Shown here: positions 4,421 to 38,858 of the stretch, in pieces
Position numbering within the stretch: the stretch's first letter is position 1
Layout: each line of letters begins with the position of its first letter
NCBI RefSeq assembly: GCF_018398335.1
Contig: NZ_JAHBRX010000005.1
Span: 1 to 64,000 of the forward strand
Length of the DNA: 64,000 nucleotides
Direction: 5' to 3'
DNA from: Chelatococcus sp. HY11
GTDB lineage: Bacteria > Pseudomonadota > Alphaproteobacteria > Rhizobiales > Beijerinckiaceae
Program-made: the position numbers and the translations under genes
The notes under the pieces: model-generated
What the model saw: the letters and a program-made list of their open reading frames with translations, nothing else
Told to the model about the DNA's origin: nothing
The model's database searches: none

Positions 4421-4988
4421 AGGTTGATCGGCCTCGATTCGTCCTTCGGCACCTAGCCTCCGGCGGGACGCCGCATCAGCCATAGATGTAATCTACGCTC
4501 CGCTGCGTCTGCTTCAGCGACTGGCCTGCCCCTATGAGGTGGTCCGGTTTCAGTCTTAATGCATGATGGGCTTATCGGCCAGCGGCAGAGCCGATGATGG
4601 TGCCGCTTTGCCGGGTTTCGACGGCCATATGAGGGCCTCCGGCGCCGGCGGTTTGTATCCCAGCGATGAGTGCGGCCGCTCGGTGTTGTAGTAGCGTCGC
4701 CATTGCTCGATGATGATCCGGGCCTCGGCGAGGCTGTAGAAGGTCTCGCCATTGAGCAGTTCATCGCGAAGCTTCGAGTTGAAGCTCTCGCAGTAGCCGT
4801 TCTCCCAAGGACTTCCCGGTTCGATGAAGGCGGTCTTTGCGCCGACAGCGGCAATCCAATCCCGCACGGCTTTGGCGATGAACTCCGGACCATAGCACAT
4901 TGGGAAGAGGCTCGACCGTTGGCTGACGGCGCGCGAAGCCTTGCGTAGCGCAGCGCGCCGTCACGGCGGTCATGACCGGCCAGCAGGT

Positions 4989-5025
4989 CTCTAAAGTGAG
5001 GTTGTCGAGACAACACTTTGGAGAG
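4989..5025 (+). ncRNA. Hairpin in the leader of IS110 transposase (copy 1)
   Basis: The inner stem GTTGTC/GACAAC is extended by CTCT-AAAGTG pairing with CACTTT-GG-AGAG, and the structure ends about nine bases before the transposase ATG at 5035. IS110-family elements are known to encode bridge RNAs in non-coding ends. This could be part of one, or a structure that limits read-through translation. The same hairpin exists in the second copy. Confidence 0.3.
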
Positions 5026-5034
5026 AGGCCGACC

Positions 5035-6306
5035 ATGACCAAGCGCTTTTCTACTCCCACCGGCGCCGTGCTGGTAGCGATCGACATGTCCAAGCATCGT
5101 CAGGAGGTCCTGATCGAACGACCTGAGGGTGGTCGACGCCGGCGGATGACCTTGATGGCGACCAAGCAGGACTACGAGCGCCTGGCTGTTGAGCTTTCTG
5201 CGATCGGACGACCGATCCTCGTCGGCTTCGAGGCGACCGGCAACTACCATCGCACGCTCGCCCACCGACTGCTGACGGCAGGCTTCGAGCTGCGGCTAAT
5301 CTCCTCGGTCGCGCTCGCCCGGACTCGAGAGGCTCTGCACAACGGCTGGGACAAGAACGATCCCAAGGATGCCCAGGTGATCCTGCACATGTTGCGGATC
5401 GGCGCCACGCAGGCCTATGTCGATCCGCTGGCCGCCGGCATCAACGACCTGCAGGAGCTGTCGAAGACGCACGAGACGATCTCGAAGGCCAAGACGCAGA
5501 CCTGGCACCGCATCCTGACGCATTATCTGCCGCTGTATTTTCCGGAGATAGCCCGCTTCGCCGGCAACAGCCGCTCGGATTGGTTCCTGGCGCTGATCGA
5601 GCGTTTCCCGACGCCCGGCAGCATCACCACATTGGAGCGGGAAGCGTTCGTGGCCGAGGCTTGGCCTCTGGTCGGCCGCAAGGTCTCCAAGGCTCGGCTG
5701 ATCAACGATATCTACGAGACGGCCTGCTCATCGATCGCGTTGCCGGTGTTGGAGGAGAGTGCGGCGATCACGATGTTCCGCATGATCGTCGCCCAAGCGC
5801 GAGGCCTGATCCGGGAGCGCAACCGGATCGAGGAGATCGCACAGGCCACGCTGGCCGATCATCATGATTACCGGCTGCTGCGGCAGATCCCGGGAATCGG
5901 ACCGATCAACGCTCTGACGATCCTGGCCGAGGCTGGAGACCTGCGCAGGTTCGGCCATCACCGGCAGTTCCTGAAGTTCTGCGGCCTCGACCTCGCGACC
6001 TGCCAATCCGGCACCTTCCGCGGCCGGACCAAGCTGTCGAAGTACGGCAATGCCCGCCTGCGCCGAACGTTCTGGATGGCAGCGCAGGTCGCCGCGCGCC
6101 AGCGCGATAACAGCTTCCGCGACAAGCTCGGCCGCTATGTTGCCGGCCACGCGGACGATGCCGATCGCCGTCGCAAGGCGATGACCGCACTTACCGCCAA
6201 GATGGCGCGGGTGGCGCATGCCGTCGTCAAGACGGGGACAGAATACCGGCCGTTCCTGGAGCGGTCGGATGCCAGGTGGAAGGACCCCTCTCTGCAAGTG
6301 CCGTGA
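5035..6306 (+). CDS. IS110-family DEDD transposase, copy 1
   Basis: Site-specific recombinase with an N-terminal RuvC-like DEDD domain (IDMSKH near residue 17, GFEATGNYH, KNDPKDAQ) and a C-terminal transposase_20 domain (LLRQIPGIGPINALTILAE, then KFCGLDLATCQSG holding the candidate nucleophilic Ser). The ATG at 5035 is preferred because GGAGAGAGG lies just upstream; an in-frame ATG at 4972 has no such site and would run through the leader hairpin. The length of 423 aa is normal. It is transcribed opposite to the IS3 element it sits in. It appears intact and could act on both copies. Confidence 0.92.
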   Translation: MTKRFSTPTGAVLVAIDMSKHRQEVLIERPEGGRRRRMTLMATKQDYERLAVELSAIGRPILVGFEATGNYHRTLAHRLLTAGFELRLISSVALARTREALHNGWDKNDPKDAQVILHMLRIGATQAYVDPLAAGINDLQELSKTHETISKAKTQTWHRILTHYLPLYFPEIARFAGNSRSDWFLALIERFPTPGSITTLEREAFVAEAWPLVGRKVSKARLINDIYETACSSIALPVLEESAAITMFRMIVAQARGLIRERNRIEEIAQATLADHHDYRLLRQIPGIGPINALTILAEAGDLRRFGHHRQFLKFCGLDLATCQSGTFRGRTKLSKYGNARLRRTFWMAAQVAARQRDNSFRDKLGRYVAGHADDADRRRKAMTALTAKMARVAHAVVKTGTEYRPFLERSDARWKDPSLQVP

Positions 6307-23600: not shown

Positions 23601-26567
23601 ATGACGCGAAGAGCACTGCTGAGCGAAGCATGGTGGAGCCAGGCAACAGCGATTCCGGATGACGAAAGGGAGATCGCCAAGCACTACACGCTGGACCAGT
23701 CGGATCTCGATCTGATCATGCGGCAGAACCGTCCATCGAACCGACTGGGTCTGGCCTGCGTTCTGGCGATGCTGCGATTTCCAGGTCGACCGCTCGCGGA
23801 TGGTGAAGTCCTACCGCCAAGCGTCTTGCGGTTCCTGGCACGGCAAATCGGCGTTGATCATCGCGAGATCGATCGATATTTCGAGCGCCCACAGACACGC
23901 CGCGAGCACCTCGCCCTGCTTTTCGACAGAATGAAGATGCGCCCATTTGCGCCTTCGGACGTGCGGGCGCTGACAGGCTGGCTGACGCCTGCTGCGCAAA
24001 CCCTGCGCCAAGCCGATACATTGGCGGACATGGTTTTGGAGGAATTGCGTCGCCGGCGAATTCTCCTGCCGGCGCGCGGCGCGCTCGAAGCCATCATCCA
24101 CGTCGCGATCCGACGCGGCATCCGGATCGCTCACCGGGCCCTGGCTGGCGGACTTTCGGAACACCAGAAGCTCGATCTGGACAAGCTTCTCGATCCGCGT
24201 GCGGGGACGAGCGTGACCATTCTCGCCTGGGCGAGAACACCGGCACTGTCGCCCACCGCCGTCAACCTCGACAGGATAGCCGAACGCGTTCAGTTTCTTC
24301 GGTCTCTGAACCTGCCAATGGAACTGATGGAGCGCATTCCGGCCAAGGTTTTTGATGAACTCGCCGCGGAAGGGATGCGGATGAGCGCGCAGCACCTACG
24401 CGACCTCAACCCCGAACGCCGGCACGCCGTGCTCGCGGCGACCGTCCTGCATCTGTCCCGCCATTTGACCGACTGCGCGATCGACGTGTTCAAGAAACTG
24501 ATCGGCGCCTTGACACGGCGGGCCGGCAATCAGGCGACAGCCCGTATCACCCGTTCCGTCCGGGAGGTTCAAAAGCCGCTCAAAGACGTTTCGAAAGTTT
24601 GTCACGCAATCATCGAGGCCAGGGAGAAAGGCGAGGATATCGGCAGGGCGCTCGAACGGGTCATTCAATGGCCAGCCTTCACAACGAGTGTTCAGGCGGT
24701 CGACACGCTGATCGCCCCGGACAGCATCGACGGGAAAATCGAAATGCTCCAGCGCTATCCGACAATCCGGAAAATGGCGCCGGAATTCCTGTCAACGTTC
24801 GTGTTTCGTGGTCACGCCGTGGCGGCGAATCTCCTGCGGGCGCTGTCCACGGTCGCCGATCTGTACCGCAAAGGGAAAAGAGCGATACCAGATAGGGCTC
24901 CCATATCCTTTGCGCCGAAAGGCTGGATGCCTCTCATCCTGCAGGATGGCAAGATCGATCGCAGGGCCTATGAGCTCTGCCTGTTCAGCGAATTGAAACG
25001 CCGGCTCGATGCGGGCGATGTTTGGGTTGAGGGAGCCAAGCGCTTCCAGTCCTTTGAGAGCTTCCTCATCCCGGCGCCGACGTTCGAGTTGATGCGCGAG
25101 GAAGGTCCGCTTCCGGTCGCCGTCGATACCGATGTGGAAACCTATCTGAAGCAACAGCGTCAGACCTTGAACGACGGGCTGAGCGACCTTTCCCGTCTGG
25201 CGGAAGCCGGCGAACTCGGCGACGTCGAATTGACCGGCGCGGGTTTCACCGTCACGCCGCACAAGGCCATGTTTCCGGACATCGCGAAGGCGCTGAAGCC
25301 GAAGGTGGAAGGCCGCCTACCAGCAATCCGCATCACCGACCTTTTGCTTGAAGTGGACGCCCGCACGGGATTTTCCAACACCTTCACACATCTGCGCTCA
25401 GGGCGAACGACCGACAACAAGCTTGCGCTTCTTACCGCCGTTCTGGCGGACGGCATCAACCTCGGCCTCACCAGGATGGCGGATGTTTCTCCCGGACTGA
25501 CGATGCGCCAGCTCGCCTGGGCACACGACTGGCATATACGGGAGGAAGGGTACACCGCCGCACATGCCATCCTCGTCAACGCCCAGAGGCAATTGCCTCT
25601 GGCAGGGTTGTGGGGCGACGGAACCACCTCGTCCTCGGATGGGCAGTATTTTCCGGCGGGGGGGCACGCCGAGGCGATCGGTGACCTCAACGCCCGCTAC
25701 GGTCCCAATCCCGGCGCCAAATTCTACCGCTTCACCTCCGACCAGTATGGCGCGTTCCACATCATCGCCATGAATGCCAACGCGAGCGAAGCCATCTACG
25801 TGCTCGACGGTCTGCTCTATCATGGCAGCGATCTCGCCATCGAAACCCATTATGTCGATACCGGCGGGGTCAGCGACATGAGTTTTGCCCTCTGCCACCT
25901 CGTCGGTTTCCAGCTTGTGCCTCGCCTGCGCGGTCTCAAGGATCGCAAGCTCCATCTCTTCCCCGGCGACGCGCCACCTGAAAAGCTGGCACCGCTCGTC
26001 GGCGAGCCCATCAACGTCGAGCGGATCAAGGCAAACTGGAATGACATCCTGCGCCTGGTCACGACGATCCGTTCCGGCCAGGTCCGGCCTTCGACCTTGC
26101 TGGCGAAGTTGTCCGCCTTCCCACGTCAAAACGGACTGGCGCTCGCGCTGCGCGACATCGGACGCATCAATAGGTCCATCTTCCTACCCCAATGGTGGCA
26201 GAACCCCGAAATGCGCAGGAACGCCACCGCCGGGCTCAACAAGAGCGAGGCCCAAAATACCCTGGCTCGCGCGCTGTTCTTCAATCGGCTCGGAGAGTTG
26301 CGGGACAGAACCTTCGAGAGCCAGTTCTATCGGGCTTCCGGACTGAACCTGCTGATCAACGCCATCGTCTACTGGAACACGCTCTATCTCGAACCGGCTT
26401 TCGCCGAACTCAACCGGGAAGGCGTCGCCACGCCGCCCGACGTGATCAAACACATCACCCCGCTCGGATGGCAGCACATCAGCCTGACCGGCGATTACAT
26501 CTGGACCCCGACTGACAGCCTCGACCTCAGGCCACTTCGGAGCGAAACATCTATGCTGGCAGCCTGA
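23601..26567 (+). CDS. tnpA: Tn3-family transposase TnpA
   Basis: A 988-aa replicative transposase, full length for the family. The N-terminal DUF4158-like region starts LLSEAWWSQATAIPDDEREI. The catalytic DDE_Tnp_Tn3 domain includes RITDLLLEVDARTGFSNTF, GLWGDGTTSSSDGQYFP, THYVDTGGVSDMSF and, near the end, NTLARALFFNRLGELRDRTF with the likely catalytic Glu in RLGEL. The frame is intact, so the element may still transpose. The stop is seven bases before the right terminal repeat. Confidence 0.96.
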   Translation: MTRRALLSEAWWSQATAIPDDEREIAKHYTLDQSDLDLIMRQNRPSNRLGLACVLAMLRFPGRPLADGEVLPPSVLRFLARQIGVDHREIDRYFERPQTRREHLALLFDRMKMRPFAPSDVRALTGWLTPAAQTLRQADTLADMVLEELRRRRILLPARGALEAIIHVAIRRGIRIAHRALAGGLSEHQKLDLDKLLDPRAGTSVTILAWARTPALSPTAVNLDRIAERVQFLRSLNLPMELMERIPAKVFDELAAEGMRMSAQHLRDLNPERRHAVLAATVLHLSRHLTDCAIDVFKKLIGALTRRAGNQATARITRSVREVQKPLKDVSKVCHAIIEAREKGEDIGRALERVIQWPAFTTSVQAVDTLIAPDSIDGKIEMLQRYPTIRKMAPEFLSTFVFRGHAVAANLLRALSTVADLYRKGKRAIPDRAPISFAPKGWMPLILQDGKIDRRAYELCLFSELKRRLDAGDVWVEGAKRFQSFESFLIPAPTFELMREEGPLPVAVDTDVETYLKQQRQTLNDGLSDLSRLAEAGELGDVELTGAGFTVTPHKAMFPDIAKALKPKVEGRLPAIRITDLLLEVDARTGFSNTFTHLRSGRTTDNKLALLTAVLADGINLGLTRMADVSPGLTMRQLAWAHDWHIREEGYTAAHAILVNAQRQLPLAGLWGDGTTSSSDGQYFPAGGHAEAIGDLNARYGPNPGAKFYRFTSDQYGAFHIIAMNANASEAIYVLDGLLYHGSDLAIETHYVDTGGVSDMSFALCHLVGFQLVPRLRGLKDRKLHLFPGDAPPEKLAPLVGEPINVERIKANWNDILRLVTTIRSGQVRPSTLLAKLSAFPRQNGLALALRDIGRINRSIFLPQWWQNPEMRRNATAGLNKSEAQNTLARALFFNRLGELRDRTFESQFYRASGLNLLINAIVYWNTLYLEPAFAELNREGVATPPDVIKHITPLGWQHISLTGDYIWTPTDSLDLRPLRSETSMLAA

Positions 26568-28010: not shown

Positions 28011-28429
28011 AATGGGCCGCCCAGAGGTGGTTCTCAGGTCGAATCCCTGGTTCTTAGATTTGCTGGCGTGCTCGCGGCAATGGCTGACTCCGACGGTCCG
28101 CGGAATTTCCCTCAGTTGTTGAGCCGACCGCCCGCGAACTCAGTGAAGTCATTGCGTGTCCTGATCTCCCATCTTTGATCTTGCCGAGCGATCCTCAGCT
28201 CCGGAGACTTCAGCTAGGGCAATAGGGCCGAGCCATGGCGTCTTTGCGGACGACCTCCCAGGAACATCAAAAAGGGAGACGACCAGCAAAAACATGCATC
28301 CGTTCAACAACCGCTTCTCGAGTCGATCCCATGCGTCGTAATGTCGCGCTCTGGAATTGTTAAAACATATTTGTAAATACAAATTATACGTTACGTTCAC
28401 GCCGAGCCAGCTACAGAAAGGGATCGGGA
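28011..28429. other. Intergenic region upstream of the hyu operon
   Basis: No gene supported; an 83-codon minus-strand frame is not protein-like. The last 80 bases are AT-rich and hold a 16-bp palindrome, so this should be the promoter region of the following operon. Confidence 0.5.
28369..28384. promoter_or_regulatory. Palindromic operator candidate for the hyu operon
   Basis: ATTTGTA-AA-TACAAAT, a perfect palindrome with 7-bp arms around a two-base centre, 45 bp upstream of the first gene. The GT...AC core resembles sites of HutC-subfamily GntR regulators, and such a regulator is the last gene of this operon. No second copy was found before the regulator gene itself. Confidence 0.5.
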
Positions 28430-28972
28430 ATGACGTGGCGGGAAGTTGAGGCCTACATTAGGCAAAGGACAGAAGCGATCTGGCTTGATGAGCCAGCCGA
28501 TTTGATCAAGATCAGGCATGGCGTGATCGATTCCGGCGCGGGCACATACGGACAGGTTTTTACGACTTTGCTGTTCGGACAGAGCGAACTGCGGGGAGTT
28601 GCATTTTACGCGACGACGGCCGTGCTGAAGCTAGCGCACGATCCGGACTTCAACGTGGAACAGCTCAAGAAGATGGCGCAGGCTCACTTTGCCTATCGCG
28701 CTGGTTTCTTGAATTATGTGGGCCTCCATGAGCTTGGCGACCTGTTCCTGCGCTATTTTTCGGTGTTCGACCAGATCTCGACCAGGGAAGACTTCCTGAG
28801 CCTGACCGAAGCGATTCACACTTACGGTGCCCGTCTACATCTTTGGACGGAGCAGGTGTTCCCGTGGCACCTCGGTATGCATATGCACCAGCGTAGCAAG
28901 GATGAGGCGCAGGATATACTCTCTTATGCTTCCGCTGAGCCGTGGACACGCGTCCCTTATCAAACCAAGTGA
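28430..28972 (+). CDS. Cucumopine-synthase-related protein (C-terminal helical-bundle domain)
   Basis: A 180-aa, largely alpha-helical protein. The run MTWREVEAYIRQRTEAIWLD, GVIDSGAGTYGQVFTTLLFG, ELRGVAFYATTAVLKLAHD and HLWTEQVFPWHLGMHMHQRS is what I associate with stand-alone relatives of the cucumopine synthase C-terminal domain. In the Agrobacterium opine synthase this domain is fused to a cyclophilin-like domain; here the second half is the next gene (21-bp gap), so the two may form one enzyme. Conserved His and Glu residues (the HLGMHMH segment) may be functional. Role in making or cleaving an opine-like compound is inference. Confidence 0.75.
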   Translation: MTWREVEAYIRQRTEAIWLDEPADLIKIRHGVIDSGAGTYGQVFTTLLFGQSELRGVAFYATTAVLKLAHDPDFNVEQLKKMAQAHFAYRAGFLNYVGLHELGDLFLRYFSVFDQISTREDFLSLTEAIHTYGARLHLWTEQVFPWHLGMHMHQRSKDEAQDILSYASAEPWTRVPYQTK

Positions 28973-28993
28973 TTGTCGAGGACGAAGAATATT

Positions 28994-29443
28994 ATGTCGA
29001 AGAAAACACTTAAGATGTCATGGCCGGCATTCGATGCGAGCATTCGGATCGAGGTCTATGATGACAAGGCGCCCACGGTTGCCGGCAAGATCTGGGACGC
29101 ACTGCCATTCAAGACCATTCAGTCTCACGCGCTGATTACCGGCCCGATGTTGCTCGCGACTGCGCCGGTGCTCACGCTCGCCCGCGAAAACCTCAAGCTC
29201 TATACCGACGTTCAGCCGGGCGAATGCCTTTATGGGGCGGGATCCCAGAACCTCATTATCTGCTACGGCGGACTGACCGAACCCGAAGGCGCGGGTATCT
29301 GGGGCAAGGTCTATCCTGAAGACCTGGATACGCTGGTCAAGGTCGGCCACAAGGCCTGGGCGAACCTCATCGCTCCCTACGGCAACGATGAGCTTAATCC
29401 GCTATCGAAGCGCAATATTCTCGTGGTGTGCGAGCGGGCTTGA
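28994..29443 (+). CDS. DUF3830 cyclophilin-like protein
   Basis: A 149-aa protein with a cyclophilin-like beta-barrel fold of the DUF3830/cucumopine synthase N-domain type: IRIEVYDDKAPTVAGKIWDA, LPFKTIQSHALITGPMLLA, LYGAGSQNLIICYGGLTEPE and a closing NILVVCER strand. ATG 28994 has GAGGACGAAG upstream. It sits ten bases before hyuB. Together with the preceding gene it reconstructs a split cucumopine-synthase-like protein. DUF3830 genes often accompany hydantoinase genes. Biochemical activity is unknown to me. Confidence 0.8.
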   Translation: MSKKTLKMSWPAFDASIRIEVYDDKAPTVAGKIWDALPFKTIQSHALITGPMLLATAPVLTLARENLKLYTDVQPGECLYGAGSQNLIICYGGLTEPEGAGIWGKVYPEDLDTLVKVGHKAWANLIAPYGNDELNPLSKRNILVVCERA

Positions 29444-29452
29444 GGCAATAAC

Positions 29453-31057
29453 ATGGGTGGTTCGACGTCAGCGGCTATGCATGAACTCGATCCGGTGACG
29501 CTCGAGCTCATCCGCAACAGTCTGCTTTCAGTAAGCGAGGAGATGTCTCAGGCGTTGGTGCGCTCCTCGCATTCCCCGAGCATCAAGGAGCGCAAGGACT
29601 GCTCCTGCGGAATATACACCGCCGACGGCGAAATGGCCGTTCAGGCGGAGCACATACCGATACATCTCGGCGTCATGCCGTTTGCGATGCGTGCCATCCT
29701 GGCCCGGTATCCTCGCGATGAGATGCGACCAGGAGACACCTTCCTGGTCAATGATCCGTATCACGGAGCCAATCACCTTCCCGATTTCATTCTCGCGGGG
29801 CCCCTGTTCATCGAGGGGGAACTCGTCGGATTTGCCGCAAGTCTTGCCCACCACAATGATGTGGGTGGCATGGCGGCGCGATCCATGCCGGCGGCCGCGC
29901 GCGAAATCTTTCAGGAGGGGTTGCGGATTCCACCGGTAAGGCTGACCCGCGACTGGCAGCCAGACGAAGCGATGACGCGACTGATCGTGAGCAATTCGCG
30001 CACGCCGGACGAGAGGCTGGCAGACCTTCGCGCGCAGATCGCTGTGGCCAAGCTCGCCCAGCAGAGATTGATCGAGATCGGTCAGCGTTATGGACGTGCG
30101 ACTATCCTGCGAGCGCTGAAAGAGCTTCTGGATCGTTCGGAAGCCGCCTTCAGCAAAACCCTCAAGAGTCTTCACGGTCATGTGTCTTATGGACAGACGG
30201 AGGCCGATTTTGGCGGGCAAATGGTCCCTATCAAGGTCAAGCTGGAGGTTCAGGAAGATCGGCTTGTCGTCGACTTTGCGGGTACCGCCCGGCAGACCGA
30301 CAGCCCCTTCAATTCCTGCCTGTCAAACACGTGTGCGTGCGTGTTCATGGCTCTGCGCGTGACGCTGGCGGGCGATATTCCCCCCAATGCAGGCCTTTAT
30401 CGCTTGGTCGACGTGCGCGCACCGGAGGGCAGCATAGTCAACCCAAAATATCCGGCGGCCATTTCTGCAGCCACCCAGGTGTCATACCACACGTTCGACG
30501 CGCTGATGGAGGCATTCGAACCGTTGGCCCCACACGCAATTTACGCGGAATCCGGAGGTGGCGGTGTGTTTTCGTTCGGAGGTCTGAACCCTCGGACAGA
30601 CCAGTTGTTCGCCTATGGCGAAGCGCTGGGCGGTGGCTCAGGTGCCAGCCCGGACAGTGAGGGGCAATGTGCGGTGATGCCGCCCGTCTCCAATCTCAGC
30701 GATACGCCGGCGGAAGCTGTCGAACTGAGCATGCCTGTGCGGATCGAGCGCTACGAACTGGTCAGAACGTCGGGCGGCAAGGGATTCCGCAAAGGCGGGC
30801 TGGGATTCCGACGGGTGTTCCGGATGTTGGCGCCGGTGCGTGCGTCGTTCCAGATCAGCATGGGGCATCGCGCACCGCGCGGCCGTGACGGTGGCGGCAA
30901 TGGAGCGACGACAAGCATTCGCATCGTGCGAGAATCGGGACAGGTGGATGTGATCGACAGCTACGTCGAAGCTGATATTGCGGCGGGTGACGTCGTTTGG
31001 ATCGAGACGGCGGGCGGCGGCGGATACGGCCAGCCGGTGCCGGAGGCCTCGTCATGA
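29453..31057 (+). CDS. hyuB: Hydantoinase B/oxoprolinase family protein
   Basis: A 534-aa HyuB subunit that with HyuA performs ATP-dependent hydrolysis of cyclic amides such as hydantoins, N-methylhydantoin or 5-oxoproline. Characteristic segments are LDPVTLELIRNSLLSVSEEM, SPSIKERKDCSCGIYTADGE, MRPGDTFLVNDPYHGANHLP and the C-terminal GGKGFRKGGLGFRRVFRML. GAGG lies eight bases before ATG 29453. The stop overlaps the hyuA start (ATGA). Substrate specificity cannot be read. Confidence 0.93.
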   Translation: MGGSTSAAMHELDPVTLELIRNSLLSVSEEMSQALVRSSHSPSIKERKDCSCGIYTADGEMAVQAEHIPIHLGVMPFAMRAILARYPRDEMRPGDTFLVNDPYHGANHLPDFILAGPLFIEGELVGFAASLAHHNDVGGMAARSMPAAAREIFQEGLRIPPVRLTRDWQPDEAMTRLIVSNSRTPDERLADLRAQIAVAKLAQQRLIEIGQRYGRATILRALKELLDRSEAAFSKTLKSLHGHVSYGQTEADFGGQMVPIKVKLEVQEDRLVVDFAGTARQTDSPFNSCLSNTCACVFMALRVTLAGDIPPNAGLYRLVDVRAPEGSIVNPKYPAAISAATQVSYHTFDALMEAFEPLAPHAIYAESGGGGVFSFGGLNPRTDQLFAYGEALGGGSGASPDSEGQCAVMPPVSNLSDTPAEAVELSMPVRIERYELVRTSGGKGFRKGGLGFRRVFRMLAPVRASFQISMGHRAPRGRDGGGNGATTSIRIVRESGQVDVIDSYVEADIAAGDVVWIETAGGGGYGQPVPEASS

Positions 31058-33105
31058 GCCGCGACTTCCACGCTGCGATCGATGTCGGCGGAACGTTCAT
31101 AGACGTGCTCATCGCCGACCGGGCGACGGCGGCCAGCCGGATATCGAAGGTCCTCCATCGTCCTGGCCACCAGGGCGAGGATATCATGACATCGCTTGCC
31201 GACCTTGCCGAGCGGTTTGGTGGCAGCATTGCCGATATCGGCACGCTGGTCGTTGGCACGACCGTTGTCACCAATGCGCTGCTTGAGCATAAGCTTGCCC
31301 GCACGGCGCTCATCACCACCGAAGGGTTTGCGGACGTCATCGAAATTGCGCGTATGCGCCGCCCGTCGTCCTACGACATTGGTCTTTCGCGGCCGGTGCC
31401 AGTAGTCCCCAGAGATCTCCGCTTTGAGGTTCCCGAGCGCATCGGTGTTGACGGTAGTGTGCTCACGCGGCTCGACGAAAGCCTTCTTCCTGACCTTGTC
31501 TCAAAGCTGCGTGCGGCGGAGGTCGAGGCAATTGCGATCTGCTTCCTCTTTTCGTTTGTGGATCCTTCGCATGAGCAAAGAGTGCGCAACTATCTTGCCC
31601 ACGAGTTCAATGTTCCGATTTCTATTTCTTCGGAAGTGCTGGCGACTTTCCGTGAATATGAACGCATCAGCACCACTGCCATTAACGCGGCCGCAAGCCC
31701 GGTGATGGCGCGCTTTCTGGACACGCTGGAACGCGCGGTCGAGGGCAAGGGAATGCGCCTGAGCATCATGGGATCCGATGGCGGTTGCATGACGCTACCT
31801 GAGGCGCGTCGTTTTCCCGCGCGGTGCATGCTTTCGGGACCCGCCGGTGGCGTGCTCGGTTCTCAAACGCTGGCGAGCCAGCTTGATCTGGGCGATGTAC
31901 TTACGCTCGACATAGGCGGCACCAGTTCGGACGTCGCCCTGCTGCGTGCGGATCAGACCGCGCTAACGCAGGACCGAACCATCTCCGGCTACTCAGTCGC
32001 ATTGCCTTCGGTCGAGGTTGAGACGGTGGGGGCAGGTGGCGGATCGATTGCCTATATCGACAGCACCGGTCTTGTGCGGGTGGGACCGCGCAGCGCCGGC
32101 GGCAAGCCTGGGCCTGCCTGCTACGGACTTGGCGGCGAGGAGCCTACCGTCACCGACGCTCATGTGGCGCTGGGGCGCCTTGGTACCGGATCGATGCTGG
32201 GCGGCAAATTCTCGATAAGCAGGCAGGCGGCTCTTGAGGCGATCGAGACGCGGATCGCCAAGCCAACCGGCATGAGCACGATGCGGGCGGCAAGCGGCAT
32301 CCTCGATATCGCAATCGACAACATTTGCAGGGCGGTCCGCTCGATTTCGATCGAGCGGGGACACGATCCGCGGGAGATGACCTTACTGCCGTTTGGCGGC
32401 GCCGGTCCGATGCACGCTCTCGAGGTTGCGCGCGTGCTGCAAATCCCGCGGGTTGTGATCCCGCTTTATCCGGGCGTGTGGTCGGCCTTTGGCATATTAT
32501 CGGCGGACCTCACCTATTCAGCTCATCGAACGCTGATGCTGACGGTCGATGCGAACGCTGCGAAATCCCTGCGGATCGCGTTGCACACGCTTGCCGATGG
32601 GTTGCTCGCGCGCGCCGAGGCGGATGGTCTGGACCCGAAAGGAATGTCGATCAATCGCAGCGCCGACTTCCGCTATCGCGGTCAGTCGCACAGCCTGACT
32701 GTGTCGCTGGCCGGGGAGACCGAGACAGACCTCGATGCCGCCGTAGCAGCGTTCCACGTCCTTCATGAGCAACGGTTCGGACATGGCGACACGGCCGCAT
32801 CTATCGAGCTTGTTAATGTCGGGGTCTCGGTCCGCCAGCCAAACCCGGGGATTGTGATCGATTTCCATTCAACGAGCGGCAATCCCGCTCCGCGAAGTCA
32901 TCGAGATGTTTGGTTTGGCGACCAAGATCCGGTGAATTGTCCGGTCTTCGAGCGCGGTGATCTCCCGGTCGGGCACCGCATCGAGGGACCGGCTGTCGTC
33001 GAGCAGTACGACTCCAACCTGGTGTTGATGCCGGGCGACAAGGTCGTGGTCGCGGAAGGCGGCGCACTCATAATAGAAATCAATCAAAAGCCACAGAGGG
33101 TCTAA
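31054..33105 (+). CDS. hyuA: Hydantoinase A/oxoprolinase family protein
   Basis: A 683-aa HyuA subunit. The N-terminal phosphate-binding motif AAIDVGGTFIDVLIAD, a second ASKHA-type motif LTLDIGGTSSDVALL and the downstream GAGGGSIAYIDSTGLVRVGP are standard; the phosphorylation step on the lactam or hydantoin carbonyl is assigned to this subunit. The ATG overlapping the hyuB stop is chosen over an open extension to 30997. The C-terminal half (GPAVVEQYDSNLVLMPGDKV) is complete. The stop is two bases before the binding-protein gene, so uptake and hydrolysis are co-expressed. Confidence 0.93.
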   Translation: MSRDFHAAIDVGGTFIDVLIADRATAASRISKVLHRPGHQGEDIMTSLADLAERFGGSIADIGTLVVGTTVVTNALLEHKLARTALITTEGFADVIEIARMRRPSSYDIGLSRPVPVVPRDLRFEVPERIGVDGSVLTRLDESLLPDLVSKLRAAEVEAIAICFLFSFVDPSHEQRVRNYLAHEFNVPISISSEVLATFREYERISTTAINAAASPVMARFLDTLERAVEGKGMRLSIMGSDGGCMTLPEARRFPARCMLSGPAGGVLGSQTLASQLDLGDVLTLDIGGTSSDVALLRADQTALTQDRTISGYSVALPSVEVETVGAGGGSIAYIDSTGLVRVGPRSAGGKPGPACYGLGGEEPTVTDAHVALGRLGTGSMLGGKFSISRQAALEAIETRIAKPTGMSTMRAASGILDIAIDNICRAVRSISIERGHDPREMTLLPFGGAGPMHALEVARVLQIPRVVIPLYPGVWSAFGILSADLTYSAHRTLMLTVDANAAKSLRIALHTLADGLLARAEADGLDPKGMSINRSADFRYRGQSHSLTVSLAGETETDLDAAVAAFHVLHEQRFGHGDTAASIELVNVGVSVRQPNPGIVIDFHSTSGNPAPRSHRDVWFGDQDPVNCPVFERGDLPVGHRIEGPAVVEQYDSNLVLMPGDKVVVAEGGALIIEINQKPQRV

Positions 33106-33107
33106 AA

Positions 33108-33863
33108 ATGAGAATTTCTGCTTTCATTCAGTCTATCGTGCTGGCGTTTGCTCTCGCCGGCTCAGCCTCAATCGCGACTGCGCAGGACTTCCGCGTCGCA
33201 GGAGATCCCAATTACCGTCCGTTCGGCTTTACCGACGAAAACGGAAACGAAGTGGGCTATGACATGGATTTCGCAGCCGCGCTGGGTGAAAAGATCGGCC
33301 GTAAGACGGCTTATGAAGGCATGGCCTTCGATGGCGTCGTTCCCGCACTTATGTCTAAGCGTATCGACGCCATCACCAGTCTGGCGGTGACGAACGCCCG
33401 CAAGGAACAGGTACTGTTCTCTCAGCCTGTACTCGTTCAAGACATCGTCGCGATCCTGCCTGTCGGCAAACCCGTGCCGTCGCTGGAAGAATTGAAGGCG
33501 CTCCGTATCGGCGTGCAGGTCAACAGTTCGGCAGCCGCGCAGGTTGAAGCGCTAGGCATGAAGGCGGCGAGCTACAATTCCCTACCGGACGAACTAAATG
33601 ATCTCGTACTGGGACGTTTGGACGCGGTCGTTGTGGAGAGCATCGGCGGCGCATACACTGTTGCGGCTACATTCCACGATAAGTTGGTCGTTTCTTCTTT
33701 GAAGCTCTCCAGTGAACCGCGCGTCATTTCGGTGGCCGTGCATAAGGACAATGGCGATCTCCTGGCCCAAATCGACCAGGCGATCACGACGATGAAGACT
33801 GACGGCACCATGAAGGCTATCGCCACCAAGTGGTTCGGCGAGACCAATGTGGTTGCGGAATGA
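33108..33863 (+). CDS. Polar amino-acid ABC transporter substrate-binding protein
   Basis: A 251-aa periplasmic binding protein, SBP_bac_3 family. The Sec signal peptide MRISAFIQSIVLAFALAGSA is followed by likely cleavage after ATAQ. The ligand-domain opening DPNYRPFGFTDENGNEVGYD and the MSKRIDAITSLAVTNARKEQ segment are typical; FSQPVLVQDIVAILPVG follows. AGAGGG precedes the ATG. First gene of a complete importer inside the hyu operon, so its ligand is presumably the substrate of HyuAB and the DUF3830 pair. Confidence 0.92.
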   Translation: MRISAFIQSIVLAFALAGSASIATAQDFRVAGDPNYRPFGFTDENGNEVGYDMDFAAALGEKIGRKTAYEGMAFDGVVPALMSKRIDAITSLAVTNARKEQVLFSQPVLVQDIVAILPVGKPVPSLEELKALRIGVQVNSSAAAQVEALGMKAASYNSLPDELNDLVLGRLDAVVVESIGGAYTVAATFHDKLVVSSLKLSSEPRVISVAVHKDNGDLLAQIDQAITTMKTDGTMKAIATKWFGETNVVAE

Positions 33864-33875
33864 AGGCAAGGTCTT

Positions 33876-34661
33876 ATGTACGGTACGATGACCGCACCCG
33901 ATAATCCGCTACTTGTGGTTGAGAATGTAGGGAAGCGCTTCAGTGCGAGCTTCGCTATCGAAGATGTGTCATTTAAGCTGAATCGCGGAGAAACCGTCGC
34001 GATTCTAGGACCGAGCGGTTCCGGCAAAACCACCATGTTGCGGTGTATCAACTTCCTGACGCCCTATGACAGCGGTACGATCCGGGTCGGCGGGCGTCTG
34101 GTCGGATATCGCGAGGAGGGTGGCCGGTGCCTTCGGGAGAAAGAGGCGAACATTGCCGATATCCGCAAGCGGATCGGCTTCGTTTTTCAGCGCTTCAATC
34201 TGTTCCCCCATCGGACCGTCATCCAGAACCTGACGGAAGGCCCGGTCTATGTGCTGGGCCTATCCGTCGACGCAGCCATCGAGCGCGCGCGGCGCGCGCT
34301 CGATCTCGTAGGCCTGCGGTATAAGGAGAATGAGTGGCCGGATCAACTCTCCGGCGGTCAGCAGCAACGAGTGGGAATAGCGCGGGCCTTGTGCATGGAG
34401 CCGGACATGATCCTGTTCGATGAGGCGACGTCGTCGCTCGATCCTGAACTTGTTGGTGAAGTGCTCGCCGTCATTCGTGATCTCGCGCTCAGCGGGATGA
34501 CCATGCTGTTGGTGACCCATGAGATCGCCTTTGCGCGCGAAGTCGCCGATCGGATCCTATTTATGGAAAATGGTCGCCTTCTTGCGGATCAACCGGCGGA
34601 GGTTTTTTTTGCTGCGCCGCCGTCTGCGCGCATAGCGCAGTTTCTCGCGAGGAGCATGTGA
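33876..34661 (+). CDS. Amino-acid ABC transporter ATP-binding protein
   Basis: A 261-aa ATPase of the GlnQ/HisP class. Walker A GPSGSGKTT, Q-loop FVFQRFNLFPHRTV, signature LSGGQQQRVGIARALCME, Walker B MILFDEATSSLDPE and the H-loop LLVTHEIAFA are all intact. AAGGCAAGG lies before ATG 33876. A slightly long Q-loop region (YREEGGRCLREKEANIADI) is usual for GlnQ-type proteins. It separates the binding-protein and permease genes with 12-bp and 1-bp gaps. Confidence 0.95.
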   Translation: MYGTMTAPDNPLLVVENVGKRFSASFAIEDVSFKLNRGETVAILGPSGSGKTTMLRCINFLTPYDSGTIRVGGRLVGYREEGGRCLREKEANIADIRKRIGFVFQRFNLFPHRTVIQNLTEGPVYVLGLSVDAAIERARRALDLVGLRYKENEWPDQLSGGQQQRVGIARALCMEPDMILFDEATSSLDPELVGEVLAVIRDLALSGMTMLLVTHEIAFAREVADRILFMENGRLLADQPAEVFFAAPPSARIAQFLARSM

Positions 34662-34662
34662 A

Positions 34663-35358
34663 ATGCTTGAGTTCGCGCTTAAGTATTTCCCGCTTTATTT
34701 CCAAGGCGCGTTTATCAGTGTCGGTTTGACAATATTGGCCATGAGCGGCGCGCTTGTAATCGGACTGGTCGTCGCACTGGGGCGCGTTTCAGGCAACACG
34801 GCCGTGCGTTACGCCTCTTCGGCTTATGTGGCATTGTTCCGAGGCGTGCCGCCATTAGTGATGATCTACATCGTCTATTTCGGGTTGCCGGCCTGGGCGG
34901 CAAGTTCGGGTGTGGAATGGCTCAGGGCGGCCATGCACCCTCTGGATAACCGTGTTGTATCGGCGACATTGGCGCTTTCGGTGATCAGTGGTGCATATGC
35001 CGCGGAGATATTGCGGGCAAGCATACAGGCTGTTCCGCCAGAGCAGAGGGAAGCGGCAAGATCGATCGGCATGTCGCATTTTCTCACGCTGCGTCGCATC
35101 ATTCTCCCTCAGGCCTTTAGAATTGCTTTTCCGCCGCTGGGAAGCGAGTTCATCATCATTTTGAAAGGAACGTCGCTCGTGTCCGTTATCGGTGTGAGCG
35201 AGCTGATGCGTACCGCACAACTGGCGGCTTCGTCGACGTTCCAGAGTCTGACAGCCTACTCGTTCGCGGCGGTGTTCTACATTGCGATGGTGATTTTGAT
35301 ACAAACCGTTGTCTACCTGCTCGAGCGGTGGATGCGGAGCAACAGGGTGCACGCATAG
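34663..35358 (+). CDS. Amino-acid ABC transporter permease
   Basis: A 231-aa inner-membrane protein of the HisM/GlnP type. The N-terminal helix region LPLYFQ/GAFISVGLTILAMSG leads to LFRGVPPLVMIYIVYFG. The EAA loop is EQREAARSIGMSHFLTLRRI, and ILPQAFRIAFPPLGSEFIII follows. Only one permease gene is present, so it probably works as a homodimer. ATG is one base after the ATPase stop. It closes the transport part of the operon, 115 bp before the regulator gene. Confidence 0.92.
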   Translation: MLEFALKYFPLYFQGAFISVGLTILAMSGALVIGLVVALGRVSGNTAVRYASSAYVALFRGVPPLVMIYIVYFGLPAWAASSGVEWLRAAMHPLDNRVVSATLALSVISGAYAAEILRASIQAVPPEQREAARSIGMSHFLTLRRIILPQAFRIAFPPLGSEFIIILKGTSLVSVIGVSELMRTAQLAASSTFQSLTAYSFAAVFYIAMVILIQTVVYLLERWMRSNRVHA

Positions 35359-35473
35359 GCAACTGTTTGAATCTAACCATGAAAGGCTCCGGCATTCCGA
35401 CGCCTTGGCGGACGGTATATAAGCGGCGCGAGCGTTGTGGGCGGCAGCTCATGACGTGGGATGAGGTATGAGA

Positions 35474-36244
35474 ATGAAAAGTTCTGAAGGCACTGCCCGC
35501 GCCCAGCCGATCTATCTGGCGCTTGCGGGAGAGTTGGAGGCATCGGCGAGAGCCCTGTCGCCCAATGTTCTCTTCCCCACAGAAGACCAGCTAGCGCAAC
35601 GGTATGGAGTAAGCCGTCCGACAGTTCGCAGGGCGCTATCGCTCATCGAGGCCAAGGGCTTGGTGCGGCGCGAGCAGGGTCGTGGCACGATTGTATGTCC
35701 CCCGAAATTCGAGCGAAGGCTCGTTCCGCCCCGCTCCATCATCAAGGATTTCAGGGATCAGGGCTATCATCTTGACACCCGGACCGTTTCGCTGGACGAA
35801 AACTTCCAGGCAGATCCTAGCTTGCATCGGCAACTAGCCGGCAAGGGAAAGGGCGGTGTTGCGTGTTTGCGGATCGTCCGTTCAGTTGCCGACGAGGCGC
35901 TGGTTTATGAAACGCATATTTTTCAGAGCGGGTTGTTACGCAAGATTGATCTGGCTCGGATCGAATCCGAGTCCCTTTCCAAGCTTCTGGTGGAGGGCAG
36001 CGGTCTGGAGATCGTCAATTCACGGACAATCGCAGAGATTGAGCCGTGTAACGCTGAAGTTGCGTTTCATCTTTCGGTGGCGGTCGGCACGCAAGTCGTT
36101 ATCCAGCGATTTCAAGACCAGCTGGCATCTGGCCGACTGCTTCAGGCCGGTGAGATGCATTACCGGACGGACCGTATCAGGTTCAGCATTGTACAAAACG
36201 GCTCACCGTATGCCGATGGCGAGGCTGATCTTCTGTTTCCCTGA
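35474..36244 (+). CDS. GntR family (HutC/UTRA) transcriptional regulator
   Basis: A 256-aa regulator. The N-terminal GntR winged helix is LFPTEDQLAQRYGVSRPTVR then RALSLIEAKGLVRREQGRGT. The C-terminal UTRA ligand domain has VACLRIVRSVADEALVYETH and QRFQDQLASGRLLQAGEMHY. ATG 35474 is preferred, because GAGG is seven bases upstream; ATG 35468 sits on top of that site. It probably represses the operon until a pathway compound binds. The 28369 palindrome is a likely target. Confidence 0.9.
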   Translation: MKSSEGTARAQPIYLALAGELEASARALSPNVLFPTEDQLAQRYGVSRPTVRRALSLIEAKGLVRREQGRGTIVCPPKFERRLVPPRSIIKDFRDQGYHLDTRTVSLDENFQADPSLHRQLAGKGKGGVACLRIVRSVADEALVYETHIFQSGLLRKIDLARIESESLSKLLVEGSGLEIVNSRTIAEIEPCNAEVAFHLSVAVGTQVVIQRFQDQLASGRLLQAGEMHYRTDRIRFSIVQNGSPYADGEADLLFP

Positions 36245-37205: not shown

Positions 37206-38858
37206 GTCCTATGTCGGGAAGCAGCTTTGGGCCTTGGCCAGCAGGTCTCATCGCGTCGGCGATGCGCCGACGTCGGTAATAAGCTGATCCAGATGGTTTC
37301 CACCGTCAACGGGATCGCTCCCAGCCATAGCAAACACAGGATCCAGCGGCACTGACGCGGCCGTGGTCCTCACCGTCCTCAAGACGAGATACGCACCCAG
37401 GTGGAAGGCCCGAACATTATCTACAGGGTCGCCTTCGGCGCCCTCACGGCACTTGCAGAGAGGGGTCCTTCCACCTGGCATCCGACCGCTCCAGGAACGG
37501 CCGGTATTCTGTCCCCGTCTTGACGACGGCATGCGCCACCCGCGCCATCTTGGCGGTAAGTGCGGTCATCGCCTTGCGACGGCGATCGGCATCGTCCGCG
37601 TGGCCGGCAACATAGCGGCCGAGCTTGTCGCGGAAGCTGTTATCGCGCTGGCGCGCGGCGACCTGCGCTGCCATCCAGAACGTTCGGCGCAGGCGGGCAT
37701 TGCCGTACTTCGACAGCTTGGTCCGGCCGCGGAAGGTGCCGGATTGGCAGGTCGCGAGGTCGAGGCCGCAGAACTTCAGGAACTGCCGGTGATGGCCGAA
37801 CCTGCGCAGGTCTCCAGCCTCGGCCAGGATCGTCAGAGCGTTGATCGGTCCGATTCCCGGGATCTGCCGCAGCAGCCGGTAATCATGATGATCGGCCAGC
37901 GTGGCCTGTGCGATCTCCTCGATCCGGTTGCGCTCCCGGATCAGGCCTCGCGCTTGGGCGACGATCATGCGGAACATCGTGATCGCCGCACTCTCCTCCA
38001 ACACCGGCAACGCGATCGATGAGCAGGCCGTCTCGTAGATATCGTTGATCAGCCGAGCCTTGGAGACCTTGCGGCCGACCAGAGGCCAAGCCTCGGCCAC
38101 GAACGCTTCCCGCTCCAATGTGGTGATGCTGCCGGGCGTCGGGAAACGCTCGATCAGCGCCAGGAACCAATCCGAGCGGCTGTTGCCGGCGAAGCGGGCT
38201 ATCTCCGGAAAATACAGCGGCAGATAATGCGTCAGGATGCGGTGCCAGGTCTGCGTCTTGGCCTTCGAGATCGTCTCGTGCGTCTTCGACAGCTCCTGCA
38301 GGTCGTTGATGCCGGCGGCCAGCGGATCGACATAGGCCTGCGTGGCGCCGATCCGCAACATGTGCAGGATCACCTGGGCATCCTTGGGATCGTTCTTGTC
38401 CCAGCCGTTGTGCAGAGCCTCTCGAGTCCGGGCGAGCGCGACCGAGGAGATTAGCCGCAGCTCGAAGCCTGCCGTCAGCAGTCGGTGGGCGAGCGTGCGA
38501 TGGTAGTTGCCGGTCGCCTCGAAGCCGACGAGGATCGGTCGTCCGATCGCAGAAAGCTCAACAGCCAGGCGCTCGTAGTCCTGCTTGGTCGCCATCAAGG
38601 TCATCCGCCGGCGTCGACCACCCTCAGGTCGTTCGATCAGGACCTCCTGACGATGCTTGGACATGTCGATCGCTACCAGCACGGCGCCGGTGGGAGTAGA
38701 AAAGCGCTTGGTCATGGTCGGCCTCTCTCCAAAGTGTTGTCTCGACAACCTCACTTTAGAGACCTGCTGGCCGGTCATGACCGCCGTGACGGCGCGCTGC
38801 GCTACGCAAGGCTTCGCGCGCCGTCAGCCAACGGTCGAGCCTCTTCCCAATGTGCTAT
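37206..38858 (-). mobile_element. IS110-family element inside the IS3 element, copy 2
   Basis: Mirror image of 4892-6544, with the same junctions in orfB. The leader hairpin lies at 38725-38761 and the 3' hairpin at 37254-37272 by correspondence. Confidence 0.8.
37444..38715 (-). CDS. IS110-family DEDD transposase, copy 2
   Basis: Identical in translation to copy 1 (423 aa from the ATG preceded by GGAGAGAGG). The RuvC-like residues and the C-terminal Ser motif are intact. Two active copies in inverted orientation could promote inversion or deletion around either IS. Confidence 0.92.
   Translation of the reverse strand: MTKRFSTPTGAVLVAIDMSKHRQEVLIERPEGGRRRRMTLMATKQDYERLAVELSAIGRPILVGFEATGNYHRTLAHRLLTAGFELRLISSVALARTREALHNGWDKNDPKDAQVILHMLRIGATQAYVDPLAAGINDLQELSKTHETISKAKTQTWHRILTHYLPLYFPEIARFAGNSRSDWFLALIERFPTPGSITTLEREAFVAEAWPLVGRKVSKARLINDIYETACSSIALPVLEESAAITMFRMIVAQARGLIRERNRIEEIAQATLADHHDYRLLRQIPGIGPINALTILAEAGDLRRFGHHRQFLKFCGLDLATCQSGTFRGRTKLSKYGNARLRRTFWMAAQVAARQRDNSFRDKLGRYVAGHADDADRRRKAMTALTAKMARVAHAVVKTGTEYRPFLERSDARWKDPSLQVP

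Follow-up and report, generated by a model that had tools for sequence, protein, structure and literature searches.

A split Pictet-Spenglerase-like gene pair in a hydantoinase/importer operon of Chelatococcus sp. HY11: a candidate catabolic route for a cyclic amino-acid/keto-acid adduct

The locus described here raises the question of what the two domains of cucumopine synthase, encoded by separate adjacent genes, do in an operon that also encodes the hydantoinase/oxoprolinase subunits HyuA and HyuB, an amino-acid importer and a GntR regulator. The locus lies in the first 64,000 nucleotides of contig NZ_JAHBRX010000005.1 of Chelatococcus sp. HY11 (assembly GCF_018398335.1, forward strand); this whole stretch of DNA is referred to below as the window. 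A preliminary description had proposed that the operon imports a cyclic opine-like compound, opens it and splits it by running the synthase-like reaction backwards. We give a probability of about 0.58 to a reading of this kind, namely that the operon is plasmid-borne and serves to degrade a cyclic amino-acid/keto-acid adduct of the cucumopine type, either free or as its γ-lactam. The keto acid of the adduct is most likely α-ketoglutarate. The contig, of 93.9 kb, is likely to be a plasmid, as it carries repA-, repB- and repC-type genes; a check for circular overlap gave none.

Profile and sequence searches of the open reading frames (ORFs) of the window recovered every gene of the preliminary description. 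Positions 28430-36244 hold eight genes, all on the + strand, the helical-bundle gene being the first and the GntR/UTRA regulator the last. The HyuA, HyuB, amino-acid-type importer and GntR genes found alongside the split pair all scored above the Pfam cut-offs. The features of the operon are the following:

28370-28383, no strand: inverted repeat TTTGTA-AA-TACAAA, operator-like, 46 bases 5′ of the first start codon
28430-28972, + strand: helical-bundle half of a Pictet-Spenglerase, 180 aa (PF18631, E 4.9e-33; McbB 3x27, E 1.2e-21)
28994-29443, + strand: cyclophilin-like catalytic half of a Pictet-Spenglerase, 149 aa (KslB 9ns6, E 1.2e-12; YGxxTE glutamate)
29453-31057, + strand: HyuB, hydantoinase B/oxoprolinase (PF02538, E 7.6e-163)
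31054-33105, + strand: HyuA, hydantoinase A/oxoprolinase (PF05378, PF01968, PF19278)
33108-33863, + strand: periplasmic binding protein, polar amino acid/opine type (PF00497, SBP_bac_3, E 1.2e-32)
33876-34661, + strand: importer ATPase (PF00005, E 8.4e-34)
34663-35358, + strand: importer permease, single (PF00528, E 1.5e-24; TIGR01726, 67 bits, cut-off 42)
35468-36244, + strand: GntR/UTRA regulator (PF00392, E 6.6e-14; PF07702, E 1.9e-14)

Sequence, predicted fold and a conserved glutamate all agree in identifying the first two genes as the two domains of a Pictet-Spenglerase of the McbB/KslB/cucumopine-synthase type. The helical gene matched the Pfam family Cucumopine_C (114.7 bits, cut-off 27) and, among solved structures, McbB, chain 9uwa (5.5e-14; named only by its domain) and KslB (3.7e-10). 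The cyclophilin-like gene matched KslB, then 9uwa (1.2e-10) and McbB (9.9e-9), while its Pfam match to DUF3830 (21.2 bits) was under the cut-off of 26. The AlphaFold2 model of the helical gene (pLDDT 82.5) had McbB as its best PDB match in Foldseek (3.1e-7), and that of the cyclophilin-like gene (pLDDT 78.8) had KslB (1.3e-10, TM 0.83 over the query length). Both models thus match the enzyme fold, the structural similarity on which the preliminary description had made its case depend. Of the solved structures, KslB is the closest to the catalytic half, and the title of entry 9nst refers to the product of L-Trp and α-ketoglutarate in the structure. The YGxxTE glutamate is present in the window and is kept in 62 of the 64 pairs surveyed below. 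The catalytic residues of McbB, which we take to be Glu97, Arg72 and His87, were placed on the McbB chain by their spacing (offset 21), which makes Glu97 the YGxxTE glutamate.

The genes are tightly spaced. From the first gene to the permease, the intergenic distances are 21, 9, -4, 2, 12 and 1 bases, the start of HyuA (ATG 31054) overlapping the HyuB stop in an ATGA overlap; a 109-base gap then separates the permease from the regulator. The ORF of the cyclophilin-like gene opens at TTG 28973, ATG 28994 being its most likely start. The inverted repeat had a single match with up to one mismatch in the 64-kb window, where 0.03 were expected, and is a candidate site of the GntR protein. The tight spacings and the recurrence of these genes at other loci indicate that the grouping is not due to chance. 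The preliminary description had proposed a survey of co-occurrence, and in the one made here the families recurred elsewhere, also on mikimopine and cucumopine hairy-root (Ri) plasmids. Among 46 loci with such genes, not independent of one another and several of them the sources of reference proteins, HyuA was present in 13 (the window included), against none of 20 control stretches of 19 kb each, hand-picked at round numbers from 13 genomes (Fisher 0.005); HyuA and HyuB were both present in 10. An aromatic ammonia-lyase of the HutH family was found at 19 of the 46 loci and in none of the 20 controls (Fisher 0.0002). ABC ATPases were common in the controls as well (11/20, against 38/46 loci). 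Left out of the 46 were four loci as near copies (L017, L018, L021 and L045; loci are cited by their numbers in our collection) and three as the same stretches as others (L052, L054 and L055, equal to L113, L112 and L110). Three plasmid stretches were 24-30 kb long, against 19 kb for the controls, with their HyuA and HutH genes at most 9.5 kb from the gene, and 8 of the 46 loci were shorter than 15 kb.

A synthase homologue with HyuAB and an amino-acid importer, as in the catabolic loci of Ri and Ti plasmids, is thus present in the window. The opine types of two such plasmids, pRi1724 (mikimopine) and pRi2659 (cucumopine), are named in PMC8554961. Both opines are derived from histidine, being C-4 diastereomers according to PMC9103826, and histidine-degradation (hut) genes beside a synthase homologue consequently point to opine splitting. 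In pRi1724 the neighbours of the split pair include RolB-family genes and a further homologue, this one fused; the importer, HyuB and HyuA are encoded on the opposite strand to the pair and are followed by a GntR gene. No hut gene was annotated in the stretch of pRi1724 that was read. The cucumopine plasmid pRi2659, the similarly built pRiO132 and the Ti plasmid pTi_CFBP2407 carry a fused homologue, hutH, hutC, HyuA, HyuB, an importer and further hut genes, and a plasmid of Sodalis praecaptivus carries a split pair, hutH, an importer, HyuA and HyuB. Other plasmids hold further arrangements. Two of Sinorhizobium medicae (L017 and L021) have a split pair like that of pRi1724, next to parts of a group II intron and a GntR gene; HyuAB is not annotated in the parts read, the gene tables for the plasmids being incomplete. 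In Paraburkholderia phenoliruptrix pSYMBR3459 (L020 4658-10969) hisZ-like and hisG genes directly precede a fused relative, and hisC and an MFS transporter lie nearby, an arrangement suggestive of a biosynthetic set fed by histidine on this symbiotic plasmid.

The role of lactam opener, which the preliminary description had assigned to HyuAB, is a likely one. For both subunits the best named NCBIfam model was caprolactamase, above acetophenone carboxylase (CapA 485 bits for HyuA and CapB 218 bits for HyuB, each with a cut-off of 1000). Cucumopine can form a lactam. The α-ketoglutarate adduct of an amino-acid amine would carry the propionate arm needed for a γ-lactam, and this lactam would be an N-substituted 5-oxoproline, with the type of bond that 5-oxoprolinase/HyuAB opens with ATP. 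HyuAB has already been suggested as the opener of succinamopine-type and rideopine lactams (PMC6733357, PMC8554961). In a FastTree tree of HyuA, the window protein, the mikimopine/Sodalis-type proteins and the cucumopine-type proteins were separate branches mixed with unlinked HyuA, so the association was not inherited from one ancestor alone, the link having arisen or been renewed repeatedly. Orthology between the window HyuA and the opine-linked HyuA was considered and rejected, since both the identities and the tree place it apart.

We infer the direction, substrate, order of steps and regulation of the proposed route as follows. The adduct, a Pictet-Spengler product, would be taken up by the binding protein and the ABC importer, and its lactam, an N-substituted pyroglutamate, would be opened by HyuA and HyuB using ATP. 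The two-subunit Pictet-Spenglerase would then act in reverse, by protonation of a ring carbon, ring opening to an iminium and hydrolysis. The products would be an aromatic amino acid and α-ketoglutarate, entering general metabolism, and the GntR/UTRA protein would act as a repressor until the ligand arrives. To our knowledge, enzymes dedicated to opening Pictet-Spengler rings are hardly described. A literature search, which covered few subscription papers, gave, among the matches listed, neither a report of opine catabolism by a Pictet-Spenglerase working in reverse nor a bacterial enzyme that opens Pictet-Spengler rings; a putative fungal retro-Pictet-Spengler step is told of in the review PMC7024544.

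The residues of the binding protein were considered as a source of information on the substrate. Its solved relatives, 55 in number, were headed by AncQR (6.9e-38), followed by LAO, HisJ, OccJ and NocT. NocT, of the same class, binds the opine lactam pyronopaline, and has Gly with Ser at the positions of the amine locks of LAO, Ser72 and Asp161 (PMC4192606). The window protein has Ala/Glu where LAO and HisJ have these locks, the mikimopine/Sodalis-type binding proteins (n = 7) have Ala or Gly with Ser, and the cucumopine-type proteins retain the lock Asp. Both locks were also missing in 12 of the 43 SBP_bac_3 proteins used for comparison, all of which have the carboxylate arginine; loss of the locks therefore says little. 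Three of the 43 (L157, L168 and L193) are themselves encoded within ~10 kb of a Cucumopine_C gene, and L157 and L168 belong to the 12. The argument for opine specificity from these residues was mostly dropped. The protein L157 (L012 1256-2194), ~7 kb from the mikimopine-type pair of the same genome, has the same Ala/Glu as the window protein.

The rest of the source genome bears on how these findings are to be read. The genome gave 21 HyuA matches, two of them apparently pieces of a single gene broken at contig ends, and thus encodes about 20 HyuA; the presence of one within 10 kb of some gene is accordingly nothing unusual there. Two of its three ammonia-lyase genes lie within ~10 kb of a Cucumopine_C gene. 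Seven Cucumopine_C genes are present in each of four genomes of the genus, the source included, and no close copy of the window pair was found in the other three (best 33-35%). The 4.6 Mb contig holds a cucumopine-type set (L014 6234-13820; G000:C1:911000-930000), 85-93% identical to pRi2659/pTi genes, which consists of hutC, hutH, a fused cyclophilin-helical gene, a divergent fused helical-cyclophilin gene and a spermidine-type ABC ATPase. The genome also carries (L012 3957-9806) a split pair of the mikimopine type, which shares 83-85% identity with the pRi1724 pair and is accompanied by an RpiR regulator and a spermidine-type ABC importer.

Several observations weigh against the proposed catabolic route. 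The window operon contains neither hut genes nor any other amino-acid-degrading gene, and at the loci surveyed hutU/I/G/F genes were not significantly enriched (8/46, against 1/20 controls; Fisher 0.17). In the tree the window pair stands alone on a long branch (placement support 48/91), and its mean identity to four groups of relatives is 25-30% for the helical and 22-27% for the cyclophilin-like protein. At the column of what we take to be McbB Arg72, an arginine is found in 10 of 10 aligned relatives and a tyrosine in the window, the surrounding columns being gap-ridden in the 64-pair alignment. The window HyuA is as far from the opine-linked HyuA (32-39% identity) as from seven unlinked HyuA of its own genome (31-38%), and the plasmid proteins that match it best (40-41%) are HyuA of the ordinary kind, as judged without their neighbour genes. 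Neither the enzyme nor HyuA is thus closely akin to those of the Ri/Ti catabolic loci. In the source genome, HyuA was within 10 kb at only two of the five Cucumopine_C places (the window and L013), and the residues of the binding protein are not specific. Finally, the characterised family members that we know of (McbB, KslB and the T-DNA synthases) all make the ring.

Some of these observations would be accommodated if the operon degraded a hydantoin, a lactam or another cyclic amide, the split enzyme carrying out, for example, a ring opening or isomerisation and not Pictet-Spengler chemistry. The HyuAB family is broad, the genome has its ~20 HyuA, and the long branch and the loss of an otherwise conserved arginine suggest a changed function. 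The pair has nevertheless retained the glutamate and both domains, and on opine plasmids such pairs are likewise linked to HyuAB, with HyuA of other lineages; we regard this explanation as unlikely. A slightly more doubtful one keeps the same machinery with exactly cucumopine or mikimopine (histidine plus α-ketoglutarate), or the lactam, as substrate, the histidine passing to hut genes elsewhere in the genome. The cucumopine-type set (85-93%, with hutH and hutC) and the mikimopine-type pair (83-85%) found in the same genome, on its 4.6 Mb contig, make it probable that the organism is already geared to these opines, but this reading makes the window operon an additional set for that one compound, a set that has diverged strongly, lacks hut genes and has a mean identity to its relatives of 22-30%. 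That the pair runs forwards in the bacterium, making an opine-like compound such as a metal chelator that the importer then retrieves, appears very improbable: McbB and KslB do make compounds, and a fused relative adjoins hisG, hisZ, hisC and an MFS transporter on the Paraburkholderia symbiotic plasmid, but the operon has no exporter, precursor gene or outer-membrane receptor, HyuAB would be without an evident role, and many relatives adjoin ammonia-lyase genes.

The most likely interpretation is therefore that the operon is a divergent variant of cucumopine-type opine catabolism whose substrate is an amino-acid/keto-acid adduct. The catabolic setting of the preliminary description was strengthened by the recurrence with HyuAB, an importer and hut genes on opine plasmids. 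The divergent lone branch, the lack of hut genes and a HyuA outside both opine-linked lineages leave cucumopine itself unproven as the substrate. The term 'uncharacterised' in the preliminary description was too strong for the kind of route, since both a cucumopine-catabolic region, that of pAtAg67 (Hooykaas et al. 2022, Plasmid 121:102629, as cited in PMC10745273), and the proposal of HyuAB as lactam opener are already published.

The wider family shows how the division into two genes is to be understood. The window, with its two genes, lacks the one-chain domain arrangement of cucumopine synthase, McbB and KslB. The collected loci contained 64 pairs, not independent of one another, of which 39 were split (32 cyclophilin-helical and 7 helical-cyclophilin) and 25 fused (16 with the helical domain first and 9 with the cyclophilin domain first), so a single-chain build does not define the wider family. 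Three of 67 helical domains had no partner according to the pairing script (L062, L065 and a T-DNA remnant in L046), although in L062 a cyclophilin-like ORF does adjoin the helical domain. Cucumopine_C is a rare family. With the source genome counted each time, it was found in 6 of 298 genomes at the level of the taxonomic family, 13 of 397 at that of the order, 3 of 289 at that of the class, where one match did not reach the cut-off, and 1 of 398 in the phylum sample. A scan of viral contigs gave no relative of the cyclophilin-like protein. Several loci combine the pair with other neighbours. The split pairs of L096-L102 form a clade that branches deeply; in most of them the helical gene leads, and they mostly adjoin importer genes (types assigned by reading). 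Two of these loci have hut-type genes, and HyuA was in none of the stretches read. L105 (5705-18167) and L106 have a split pair, ABC importer genes (branched-chain type by reading) and an aromatic ammonia-lyase, L105 also having a UbiD decarboxylase (Pfam); they are perhaps routes for the adduct of another aromatic amino acid. In L047 (2878-4448; candidate division NC10), two consecutive cyclophilin-like genes are followed by one helical gene, together with a spermidine-type importer and an aromatic ammonia-lyase.

The homologues of cucumopine and mikimopine synthase located in T-DNA (L018 11900-12862, L045 15866-16915 and L015 9635-10561) were taken as synthases from their position beside RolB-family genes and from PMC5606197. 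The two of the cucumopine type (pRiO132 and pTiAg57; fused, helical domain first) shared 89-94% identity per domain with fused genes in their own plasmid's catabolic cluster; with a gene of the source genome, located on its 4.6 Mb contig, they shared 83-89%. The mikimopine-synthase homologue (fused, cyclophilin domain first) fell inside the clade of split pairs of pRi1724, Chelatococcus and S. medicae (support 96.6/100, on a long branch), its nearest split pairs being 35-39% identical in the helical and 47-52% in the cyclophilin-like domain. Since these homologues nest in two lineages with opposite domain orders, the tree suggests that the two T-DNA synthases were recruited separately from bacterial members. 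We tentatively propose, at somewhat less than even odds, that the window pair is one member of a broad bacterial family, split in most cases, of catabolic retro-Pictet-Spenglerases: two-subunit enzymes that would cleave ring adducts of amino acids and keto acids once these have been imported and their lactams opened, with several different adducts as substrates across the family. The T-DNA synthases would have been recruited from it separately, and the makers would be a derived minority in it. If these proposals are true, each step of cucumopine-type opine breakdown would have a testable enzyme, the origin of the two T-DNA opine synthases would be explained, and soil bacteria outside Agrobacterium may live on cucumopine-type compounds.

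Reading of the ORFs around the operon suggests that it is flanked by a Tn3-type transposase at 23601-26567 and by insertion sequence (IS) elements from 36373 onward. Three 444-aa ORFs with identical first 60 residues (window 4972-6306 and 37444-38778, and L010 117-1451) presumably encode, by their look, an IS110-type transposase; one of them seems to interrupt what we take to be an IS3-type element just 3′ of the operon.

Compared with known systems, the window pair has both domains, the fold and the conserved glutamate in common with KslB and McbB (9ns6/9nst/9k0a and 3x27). These are single chains making ring compounds from Trp, whereas the window has two genes inside an import operon; the order of the window genes, helical then cyclophilin-like, is that of KslB, while McbB has the helical domain last. 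Every Pfam domain of the two subunits of the HyuAB/5-oxoprolinase/caprolactamase family is also present in the window proteins, which fall under the curated NCBIfam cut-offs for caprolactamase CapAB. The cucumopine-type regions of pRi2659, pRiO132 and the Ti plasmids share with the window a synthase homologue, HyuA, HyuB and an importer, but have a fused enzyme and also hutH, hutC and further hut genes, none of which is in the window operon. The importer has one permease gene in the window and two in the pRi1724 and pRi2659 clusters. In pRi1724 the order is cyclophilin-helical, the importer and HyuAB are on the other strand, HyuA is of another lineage, and the pair is 30% (helical) and 24% (cyclophilin-like) identical to that of the window. 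What pRi1724 and the window have in common is separate helical and cyclophilin-like genes, HyuA, HyuB, an importer with its binding protein and a GntR regulator.

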